Part shown: one piece after another, positions 21,816-27,273 of the stretch
Numbering within the stretch: position 1 is the stretch's first letter
Layout: each line of letters starts with the position of its first letter
IMG/VR virus record: IMGVR_UViG_3300020162_001076
Coordinates: 1 to 27,595 of that record
Reading direction: 5' to 3' (one strand)
Origin: a virus
DNA: 27,595 nt
Translations under genes and position numbers: made by a program
The notes under the pieces: generated by a model
Seen by the model: the letters and a program-made list of their open reading frames with translations, nothing else
The model's database searches: none
What the model was told of the DNA's origin: nothing

Positions 21816-22033
21816 GCGACCCCCATCGTCTGATCGAGCAGGTACTCCGGCACAGGCTTACGCGCGCTGTCCTTCCATGCGAGGCAAGCACGAAGGCGTG
21901 CGCCAGATGCGGTGCGGCTGAAGCCGACGATCTCCGCGTGGCCGGCGCCTTCGCGCACTACCCACATGATGCGGCCGTTGTAGTCGATGACCTCGAGGTC
22001 GCGCCCATCCGGCGCAGTAGCGAGCCAGTTCAT
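21812..22033 (-). CDS. 73-residue hypothetical early protein
   Basis: I choose ATG 22033, which overlaps the exonuclease stop (ATGA). The product starts MNWLATAPDGRDLEVIDYNG and has a small beta part (RIMWVVREGAGHAEIVGFSR) followed by RLRACLAWKDSARK and PEYLLDQTMGVA. Longer in-frame readings would lie inside the exonuclease gene and are rejected. It is one of four small proteins translated in a tight overlapping series between the exonuclease and the 3D-domain protein. I cannot assign a function. Confidence 0.75.
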   Translation of the reverse strand: MNWLATAPDGRDLEVIDYNGRIMWVVREGAGHAEIVGFSRTASGARLRACLAWKDSARKPVPEYLLDQTMGVA

Positions 22034-22674
22034 GCGGCACCCACAAGCGCGCGGTACACGGCGCGGGTGACCTCGACGTCTTGCAGGCAGTATGCGGCGA
22101 TCTCGTCGCGGCTTCCGGAGAGCCACATGTCCCACACCTGCGATCCGTCGCCAGACTTGCCCTCGAGGCCAAGGGCCGTGGCGAGGTCGCCGAGACGGCA
22201 TCGCTCCGCGCCCATCGCGAGGCGCATGGTGTCCTGCACGGCGTGACGATGGCCGCGGTACTCGGACAGTTCACGAGCCAGATTATGCACTCCGTTACGC
22301 GCCGCAGCGATGTGGAGACGCGGCAGGTCGAACCCGACGATGTTGTGGCCCACGATCGTGTCGGGCGCGTACTGCACGAGGATCGCGTCCAGCTCGCCAA
22401 GCATCTTCCGTTCGCCATGCTCGTCCAGCATGATGACGGTACGCTCTTGGACGTCGTGGCCGATCTCCACGATCACGCCGATGCAGCAGATGCGCGCATA
22501 GCGCCAATCGAGAGCAGTGCGAAGCCACTGCTCCATGCGGTGCTCCTCGACCCATTTGGCGATGGACTCGGGCTTCGTGTAGTTGCCGGGGACGGACGCC
22601 AGCGCGTGCGCGTCAACCTGCTCGTCCGTCCAGTTGGCGGGAAGCGTCTCGATGTCTAGGTAGAGTGTGGTCAT
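22030..22674 (-). CDS. DEDDy-type 3'-5' exonuclease
   Basis: This 214-residue protein has the three exonuclease motifs of the DnaQ-like/PolB-associated superfamily: YLDIETLP with Asp 7 and Glu 9, IVGHNIVGFDLPRL with Asp 116, and YCLQDV with Tyr 195 and Asp 199. The Tyr in the third motif places it in the DEDDy group. It is a stand-alone nuclease; I see no attached polymerase domain. Together with the ERF protein encoded just upstream, it could provide end resection or trimming for strand annealing. Proofreading for the host polymerase is less likely. GGAG lies 8 bases before the minus-strand ATG. Confidence 0.9.
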   Translation of the reverse strand: MTTLYLDIETLPANWTDEQVDAHALASVPGNYTKPESIAKWVEEHRMEQWLRTALDWRYARICCIGVIVEIGHDVQERTVIMLDEHGERKMLGELDAILVQYAPDTIVGHNIVGFDLPRLHIAAARNGVHNLARELSEYRGHRHAVQDTMRLAMGAERCRLGDLATALGLEGKSGDGSQVWDMWLSGSRDEIAAYCLQDVEVTRAVYRALVGAA

Positions 22675-22685
22675 TGTAGTGCTCC

Positions 22686-23414
22686 TCAGAACGGGGTGCT
22701 GTCGAGGTCGGGGTAGTCGTCAGGTGCGGAGGCAGGCGCAGGTGCGGCGGGTGCCTTCCAGATGCGCCCAGCACATCCCTTGTCCTTGCAGCCAAAGTCG
22801 GGAGCCTTCGGGTTGACGGCGCCGCTGGCCTTCTTCGGACGGTTGTCCCACATGTCGCCGCCGCATGTCGGGCACGGAGGCTTGTTGGGATCCACCGGCT
22901 TCACGCGCTCGACGCTCTCGACCTTGGCGTCGAACGTCTTTGCGACCTTGGATGCCGTCTCCACGAGCCGGGCGGGCGGTTCCTCGCGCTGCGCTGGCTT
23001 CTGCTGACGAGCAGGCGCGGAGGCCGCTTCTCCATCGTCGTCATCGCTGACGACTCCGCAAACGGAGGCAAGTGCGTATCGACGGAGGTAGGTCAGGATC
23101 GATCCCACAACCTGCGGGTTCTCCTGCGCCGGACGCGCCGAGATGGTGCTGCCGAGATGCTCTCCGCTCTCGTGGAGCAGGATCGTCGTCAGCTGCACGC
23201 TGCCGTCCTCGCCACGACCGGGAAGCTGTGTGACAGCGAGCCCATGCTTGGAAAGCGGCTCACGGCATGCATCCATGATGGATGACAGATCGGCGTACTT
23301 GGAACGAAAATGCGGGTTAGAAGCGTCCTTTGCGGCGGCTCCCATCTCGCCCTGCGCCTTGGCGAGAGCCAGCGCAAGGTGCCCGATAGTGTCAGACTGA
23401 TAGTGGAAAGCCAT
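22686..23414 (-). CDS. erf: ERF-family single-strand annealing protein with zinc ribbon and SSB-like tip
   Basis: From ATG 23414 the product has 242 residues. Residues about 1-130 form an ERF-type domain: IGHLALALAKAQGEMGAAAK, PHFRSKYADLSSIMDACR, GLAVTQLPG, LTTILLHESGEHLGS and GSILTYLRRYALASVCGVVSDDDDG. Such proteins anneal single strands during phage recombination and circularisation. After a Pro/Arg/Glu linker, Cys 181, 184, 209 and 214 form a zinc ribbon (PPCPTCGG ... FGCKDKGCAGRIW). The last residues DDYPDLDSTPF mimic the acidic C-terminal tip of bacterial SSB. The start overlaps the stop of a tiny upstream gene (TAATG); GGAG lies upstream. A start at 23639 would run through the control region and is rejected. 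Confidence 0.93.
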   Translation of the reverse strand: MAFHYQSDTIGHLALALAKAQGEMGAAAKDASNPHFRSKYADLSSIMDACREPLSKHGLAVTQLPGRGEDGSVQLTTILLHESGEHLGSTISARPAQENPQVVGSILTYLRRYALASVCGVVSDDDDGEAASAPARQQKPAQREEPPARLVETASKVAKTFDAKVESVERVKPVDPNKPPCPTCGGDMWDNRPKKASGAVNPKAPDFGCKDKGCAGRIWKAPAAPAPASAPDDYPDLDSTPF

Positions 23415-23509
23415 TAGCAGATCTCCTCGATGAAGGCGATGGTCGCGTAGACGCAGACCGTGAGAGGGATGAGGGCGAGGCAGAGCCATACGGCAGAGAT
23501 CTCGATCAT
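23414..23509 (-). CDS. 31-residue membrane peptide, first gene of the leftward operon
   Basis: On the minus strand, ATG at 23509 is preceded by AGGAG with ideal spacing and reads 31 codons to TAA, whose last base starts the erf ATG (TAATG). The peptide is one hydrophobic span, IEISAVWLCLALIPLTVC followed by VYATIAFIEEIC, with short acidic ends and three cysteines. It must cross or sit in the inner membrane. Such a first product of an early operon could alter the host membrane, exclude other phages or serve as a translated leader controlling erf. No family is recognised. It is too short for typical gene-finder limits. Confidence 0.72.
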   Translation of the reverse strand: MIEISAVWLCLALIPLTVCVYATIAFIEEIC

Positions 23510-23601
23510 GGTGCTCCTGTGTGGACGTCGAAGGGTTGCCGCTCCGACACCCATACATTAAGGGGGAGGTGCCGGGCGGGCAAGCCCAGCGAGGAGAAAA
23601 A
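23510..23601. promoter_or_regulatory. Divergent control region between the early operons
   Basis: This 92-base gap separates the leftward membrane peptide/erf operon from the rightward XRE regulator. It holds a TTGCCC-17-TAATGT site on the minus strand and a weaker plus-strand TTGCCG (23536-23541) with 17 bases to TAAGGG (23559-23564), so the two candidate promoters face each other with touching -10 regions. The inverted repeat GGGCAAGCCC (23578-23587) covers the leftward -35 and is a candidate operator. The XRE protein encoded immediately to the right is the obvious binder. All regulatory roles are inferred. Confidence 0.6.
23555..23583 (-). promoter_or_regulatory. Putative leftward early promoter
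   Basis: On the minus strand TTGCCC (23583-23578) and TAATGT (23560-23555) are separated by exactly 17 bases. The -35 matches four of six sigma70 consensus positions, and the -10 fits TANNNT. It would start transcription about 40 bases before the 31-codon membrane peptide gene. This is one of the few AT-rich spots in the region. Confidence 0.5.
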
Positions 23602-26824: not shown

Positions 26825-26864
26825 GATAGGCGCGTCGGCAGATGGTCTGCCGGCGTGGCCTATC
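26825..26864 (+). other. Long structured RNA hairpin in the ssb leader
   Basis: The outer arms GATAGGC (26825-26831) and GCCTATC (26858-26864) and the inner arms CGGCAGA (26836-26842) and TCTGCCG (26846-26852) are perfect complements around a TGG loop. The intervening GCGT (26832-26835) and GCGT (26853-26856) pair as RNA with two G-U wobbles, leaving one bulged G (26857). The result is an 18-bp stem ending 22 bases before the ssb start. It is stronger as RNA than as DNA and is not followed by a T-run. Confidence 0.72.
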
Positions 26865-26886
26865 TGCGTCTGTTAGGAGCAAGATC

Positions 26887-27273
26887 ATGATCAACAAGGT
26901 GATCCTCGTCGGCAACCTCGGGCAAGACCCAGAGACGCGCCACACGAACGGCGGCAACAGCGTTACTCAGCTTCGCCTTGCGACGACGGAGAAATACAAG
27001 GACCGCGACGGCGCCATGCAGGAGCGCACCGAGTGGCACACGGTCATCGTGTGGGGCAAGCAAGGCGAAGCCTGCGGCAAGCACTTGACCAAGGGCCGGC
27101 AGGTCTACGTCGAGGGCCGACTGACCACGCGCAAGTGGCAGGACAAGGAAGGCAAGGATCGCTACACCACTGAGGTGATCGGAGACAACGTGCGCTTCCT
27201 CGGTGGCTCGCCTGGTGAGAAGCGTGAGGCCGCGCCGGCCGACGATCTCGGCTACGGTAACGGGCCGTGGTGA
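26887..27273 (+). CDS. ssb: Single-stranded DNA-binding protein
   Basis: The 128-residue protein is a bacterial-type SSB with one OB fold (residues about 1-106): [78 protein letters not shown] and [16 protein letters not shown]. The linker is very short, and the tip [11 protein letters not shown] replaces the usual acidic DDDIPF ending with a Trp at the C-terminus. It coats single strands at the origin and at recombination sites. ATG 26887 with AGGAG at 26876-26880 is chosen; the earlier frame passes through the leader hairpin. Confidence 0.95.

Follow-up and report, generated by a model that had tools for sequence, protein, structure and literature searches.

The phage ssDNA-binding proteins T7 gp2.5 and T4 gp32 carry acidic C-termini that contact replication proteins. 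In both, and in part in SSB, the acidic tail has been described as bending back over the DNA-binding groove until ssDNA displaces it; acidic tails are able to act in cis. Stimulation of annealing by Sak4, as well as of recombineering, requires the tip of the cognate SSB (PMC5928155), and PriB with a grafted SSB tail shows increased affinity for ssDNA, with stimulation of PriA (PMC8509808). A survey of Firmicutes annealases described pairing of erf with ssb genes as well as a common C-terminal HTH domain; its text does not contain the word zinc (PMC8093625).

Here, we analyzed a viral contig of 27.6 kb, referred to as the window, whose erf gene and the other genes that bear on it are as follows.

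22686 to 23414, minus strand: erf gene for a single-strand annealing protein of 242 aa (translation; PF04404, E 8e-27; PHROG 2324, E 1e-41)
22977 to 23369, minus strand: ERF core domain, residues 16 to 146 (PF04404 match; closest solved fold, Gp77 in 9y6u)
22875 to 22976, minus strand: first linker, residues 147 to 180, variable in length and sequence (alignment; pN above that of the core or ribbon; low pLDDT)
22758 to 22874, minus strand: putative four-cysteine WDNR zinc ribbon, residues 181 to 219 (C181, C184, C209, C214, and WDNR invariant in 24 diverse ribbon ERFs)
22722 to 22757, minus strand: Pro/Ala-rich disordered tether, residues 220 to 231 (pLDDT about 50)
22689 to 22721, minus strand: SSB-Ct-like acidic tip DDYPDLDSTPF, residues 232 to 242 (P[FY] conservation in ribbon ERFs; codon-level selection)
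22030 to 22674, minus strand: PolB-type 3'-5' exonuclease of 214 aa, a candidate phage partner, 14 nt after erf (PF10108, E 2e-14)
26842 to 27273 (likely true start, 26887), plus strand: phage OB-fold SSB, ending in GNGPW, no Pro-Phe tip (PF00436, E 6e-37)

By profile and fold, the erf product is an ERF-family protein with a predicted annealing function. It matched PF04404 with 94.6 bits against a curated cut-off of 25, as well as PHROGs 2324 and 155, and in a Foldseek comparison its core resembled Gp77 in 9y6u (E 1.9e-7; TM on target, 0.76; 32% identity), a Rad52-type annealase fold. When an OB fold or PF00436 was sought in the same protein by profile search, the sole match was PF04404; since only this family was found there, the erf product is not a member of the SSB family. 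The ribbon reads CPTCGGDMWDNRPKK...NPKAPDFGCKDKGCAGRIW (residues 181 to 219; CPTC...CKDKGC), with both Cys pairs invariant in the 24 sequences; it matched no Pfam family above cut-off and no PHROG convincingly. With the 24 aligned ribbon ERFs as input, AlphaFold2 modeled most of the core with confidence and the ribbon with intermediate confidence; pLDDT in the tail (residues 221 to 242) was about 50, as expected of the flexible tether that carries an SSB-Ct type tip. In relatives, the tail past the ribbon is 22 to 92 residues long. Thus, the translation, the PF04404 core, the ribbon, and the low-pLDDT tail bear out a preliminary description of this DNA, in which the protein was said to end in DDYPDLDSTPF after a zinc ribbon and a flexible linker. 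Immediately upstream of erf lies a 46-aa membrane-like ORF (23414 to 23554, minus strand), which is 98% identical in a related phage and whose stop overlaps the erf start (TAATG).

The same description had called for a survey of ERF homologues, with a lack of conservation of the last residues among close homologues as the outcome that would refute its reading; we found the reverse. Ribbon-bearing relatives in viral contigs form several clades with differing tethers, and a Pro-Phe/Tyr end was present in 54 of 57 distinct ribbon-ERF C-termini, 53 of which also had acidic residues nearby. A few ribbon ERFs, such as L120, L332, and L442, lack the tip. With the tip defined as a P[FY] end plus two or more acidic residues among the final nine, 51 of 55 tails carried it; shuffling the letters of the tails yielded 0.34 on average and 4/55 at most. 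The position-wise majority of these ends, D(-6) D(-5) D/E(-4) I/F/M/L/T(-3) P(-2) F(-1), is the SSB-Ct pattern, and ribbon ERFs often end in the exact E. coli SSB hexapeptide, DDDIPF. The remaining clades end in PDEIPF, EDGPGFPF, EDDRGFPF, DDDMPF, DEEIPF/Y, DIDDMPF, DDEIPY, DEDLPF, DDDLPF, DDAGLPF, DNGEIPF, SDELPF, PDELPF, DDEMPF, or DEETPF. The end of the window clade, DLDSTPF, keeps Pro-Phe after acidic residues; the full hexapeptide D-D-D/E-[I/L]-P-F occurs in sister clades (DDDIPF, DDDLPF, and DEDLPF), and the window has LDSTPF in its place. The window tip is thus a degenerate version, with Ser instead of an acidic residue at -4 and Thr instead of Ile/Leu at -3, although Thr at -3 recurs in DEETPF (L462) and TEYTPF (L140).

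Codon comparisons pointed in the same direction, with single pN/pS values being noisy because the regions are short. Over the final six codons, the 14 sequences of the DDDIPF clade had a pN of 0 and a pS of 0.18, compared to 0.11 and 0.38, respectively, in the adjoining tether. In the GFPF/DMPF group, the residues preceding PF vary, while P and F are fixed (pN 0 and pS 0.30 over two codons); in the EIPF/EIPY clade, F alternates with Y at the end. A DNA-level cause, such as overlap with the ribosome-binding site of the next gene, was considered and set aside: the distance to that gene ranges from 2 to at least 180 nt and the tip codons vary synonymously, and such a cause is unlikely because the tip persists at distances of 2, 14, and 180 nt alike. 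We also counted the tip among non-ERF ORF ends in the examined ERF-relative loci. Only 43 of 4,056 distinct ends matched, comprising 37 OB-fold SSBs, 4 ribbon carriers, and 2 others. In phages of the examined loci, an acidic P[FY] end practically marks a protein as an SSB.

The tip is linked to the zinc ribbon. Clustering by core identity covered ERFs taken from bacterial genomes, annotated phage records, and viral contigs. With a threshold of 80%, the tip was present in 20 of 24 clusters with the ribbon versus 6 of 65 without it (Fisher P 4e-11, on counts that ignore kinship), the outcome that the preliminary description had named as strengthening its case. The corresponding counts, which likewise ignore kinship, were 10/14 versus 6/59 at 70% identity and 7/11 versus 3/48 at 60%. 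On an ERF tree of 75 representatives, the ribbon needed four changes and the tip eight, and supported pairs were too few for a phylogenetically paired contrast of the two. Ribbon-less ERFs with a tip are L041, L048, L065, L136, L137, and L140; in two related ones, L048 and L136, the HHDLPF and EIDIPF tips follow a different extra C-terminal domain, so that the tip may have been gained independently there. No ribbon was present in the ERFs of the eight bacterial loci examined. A tblastn search of cultured phages with the ribbon alone gave no match even at an E of 10, a result to which low-complexity masking may contribute, and none of 1,238 phage records matched the full ribbon-ERF query with a coverage of 80% or higher.

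Ribbon and tip also occur together outside the ERF family. Two Rad52-like proteins (PF04098, PHROG 1097) that carry the ribbon end in LAHLPF (L132) and YDEVPF (L133), whereas a third ribbon protein related to these two, L472 (phmmer E 7e-9), ends in LAEGY and has no tip. Rad52-like annealases therefore bear the tip in 2 of 3 cases with the ribbon versus 0 of 78 complete ribbon-less relatives, the latter being those found with L132 as the query. An SSB gene is present in 51 of these 78 ribbon-less loci, and 41 of the 51 SSBs end in PF/PY. The ribbon was also seen at the start of small phage proteins (L109, L112, L127, L335, L337, and L475) and inside unclassified, probably ssDNA-related proteins (L320, L326/L473, L341, and L474) and the RecT protein L126; in all of the internal cases more sequence follows the ribbon and there is no tip. 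Because two of the small ribbon-first proteins end in an SSB-like tip (L112, DPDLPF; L337, SDDLPF), such proteins may be stand-alone adaptors.

Altogether, the tip reads as a selected SSB-Ct mimic on an ERF annealase, since it is conserved, is linked to the ribbon, recurs on Rad52-like proteins, and is otherwise almost confined to OB-fold SSBs. In the window, the tip is on paper a weaker copy than those of its sisters, and it may bind less tightly or serve a narrower set of partners.

We next compared these ERFs with the SSBs encoded beside them. As the preliminary description had stated from the translation, the window phage's own SSB ends in GNGPW. Of the 38 records in the first set, which were mostly ribbon carriers, 4 had a PF00436 match, as did 3 of 29 records with a ribbon-less, tipless ERF. 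Since most ERF records lack PF00436 with or without the tip, SSB absence is not specific to tip-bearing ERFs, and the idea that the tip substitutes for a missing phage SSB gene is unsupported. A profile search gave no PF00436 match in four sister genomes (G003, G005, G009, and G025), which have direct end repeats of about 125 to 165 bp, as in complete assemblies. Relatives of many window genes, the large structural ones among them, occur in these genomes in the same order. Beside tip-bearing ERFs, SSBs from three lineages end in GNGPW (the window and L006), GYGNLY/GYGIPY (L008 and L029; IPY is a borderline tip), and TYNW (L336). Of the 15 SSBs that accompany tipless ERFs, 11 end in PF, with a short and doubtful hit in L368 excluded; the four others are from L032, LP.2, Vibrio phage 1.038, and phage EB49, the last two having an extension after DDDIPF or DDIPF. 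The proposed division of labor between the ERF and the phage SSB is only hinted at: the SSB tails differ in the three lineages, but most ERF phages of the set lack PF00436 regardless of the tip. Because the lineages are so few, the contrast between ERF and SSB tails is suggestive only.

Several other SSB ends were recorded. SSB-like proteins of L399 and L409 have, as annotated, a nonterminal DDDIPF or DDIPF followed by an extension, and some phage SSBs end in Trp in place of Pro-Phe (GNGPW in the window; DATYNW and MPDW in others, including L394 and L410). The ERFs of the cultured coli- and Klebsiella phages L405, L406, and L409 have the acidic-aromatic ends INDFE, PIEGF, and PIEQF and adjoin SSB or SSB-like proteins that carry either DDDIPF or DDIPF.

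From these sequence comparisons, we consider it probable that the ribbon-bearing ERF annealase, through its tethered SSB-Ct mimic, docks host SSB partners onto phage ssDNA. The ERF core would coat ssDNA as an oligomer, and this coat would present many tips, which could dock in the SSB-Ct pockets of host RecO, RecQ, PriA, ExoI, RecG, chi, and DnaG. Docking would place host enzymes of recombination and replication restart on phage DNA coated by the annealase, with no need for host SSB, and the ribbon would probably contribute a further contact, with nucleic acid or protein, next to the tip. A host partner is indicated because the tip is kept despite differing neighbor genes and because complete sister genomes lack a PF00436 SSB; as to the host itself, terminase comparison gave only weak matches, with mixed hosts. 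A broader picture can be offered only tentatively, and we rather doubt it: a mobile C-terminal cassette of WDNR ribbon, tether, and SSB-Ct mimic would be joined to at least two phage annealase families, ERF and Rad52-like, and to small stand-alone ribbon proteins, the annealase would act as an SSB-type interaction hub on phage ssDNA, and any remaining phage SSB would have lost its tip.

The partner could instead be encoded by the phage, for example, the adjoining PolB-type exonuclease, with which the ERF would form a two-component recombinase. In favor of such a pairing, the exonuclease gene directly follows erf in the window and in the DEIPF and DDDIPF clades. Nonetheless, the GFPF, DMPF, EIPF/EIPY, and other tip-bearing clades have no exonuclease relative beside erf, and an unrelated protein of about 165 aa comes next. 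The exonuclease was accordingly rejected as a general partner of the tip, and its absence beside erf in these clades makes a phage-encoded partner improbable. Chance, or a neutral trait of a tail rich in Pro and Asp, deserves mention in that the tail is indeed rich in Pro and acidic residues and the window tip is degenerate. However, the excess over shuffled tails (51/55 versus a mean of 0.34), the absence of amino acid change in the DDDIPF tips, and several appearances on the ERF tree largely refute this origin, leaving it only the slimmest probability.

Two further explanations accept selection on the tip but assign it another role. The acidic-aromatic tail could be self-regulatory, bending back over the groove that binds DNA, in the ERF ring or in a neighboring subunit, until ssDNA displaces it. 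A flexible tail that is acidic and ends in an aromatic residue would suit this role on a protein that binds ssDNA; on the other hand, the tip tracks the SSB-Ct pattern D-D-D/E-x-P-F more closely than a simple DNA mimic would need, and this tip also occurs on another annealase core, so we regard self-regulation as unlikely. Alternatively, the tip could act as a decoy, sequestering host SSB partners from SSB-coated phage DNA and, for instance, inhibiting host nucleases or RecQ/RecO. This explanation shares its sequence evidence with recruitment, and an SSB-Ct mimic would compete with SSB, but a tip held covalently on an ssDNA-binding protein would be expected to concentrate partners on DNA, and we give a decoy little credence. 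Recruitment of host SSB partners remains our preferred reading. If the tip does so, it would explain how small phages without their own SSB engage host recombination and replication restart. The effect of a tethered tip on the dependence of annealases on host SSB, a practical limit in recombineering, would become testable.

Compared with known systems, the ribbon ERFs combine a known annealase with a known docking motif, a combination that we did not find described in the open-licence literature, where a search for a native annealase with an SSB-Ct-like end returned none. The tip is like that of bacterial SSB (PF00436; E. coli DDDIPF) in its terminal position, its acidic residues followed by hydrophobic-Pro-Phe, its disordered tether, and its ssDNA-binding carrier; it differs in being placed via a zinc ribbon on a Rad52-superfamily annealase with no OB fold and, in the window, in reading STPF. 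T7 gp2.5 and T4 gp32 tails lack the D-D-D-x-P-F pattern, and their carriers are not annealases of the same superfamily. Core domain and fold are shared with the ERF annealases (PF04404) and Gp77 (PDB 9y6u), whereas most ribbon-less ERFs are tipless (59/65 clusters) and several cultured phages have the tip on the adjoining SSB gene. Similarly, among Rad52/Sak-like annealases (PF04098, PHROG 1097), the ribbon-bearing L132 and L133 end in LPF/VPF after acidic residues, unlike the 78 ribbon-less members. The engineered PriB-SSBc chimera also places an SSB tail on another ssDNA-binding protein, with stimulation of PriA, but it is artificial, while the ribbon-ERF tip is natural (PMC8509808). In phage HK620, the function of the annealase Sak4 likewise uses an SSB-type tip (NDYPPF), which there is supplied in trans, by the cognate SSB, and here lies in cis on the ribbon ERF (PMC5928155). 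Thus, where annealases are known to use an SSB tip in trans, a native annealase that bears the tip itself reverses the relation.
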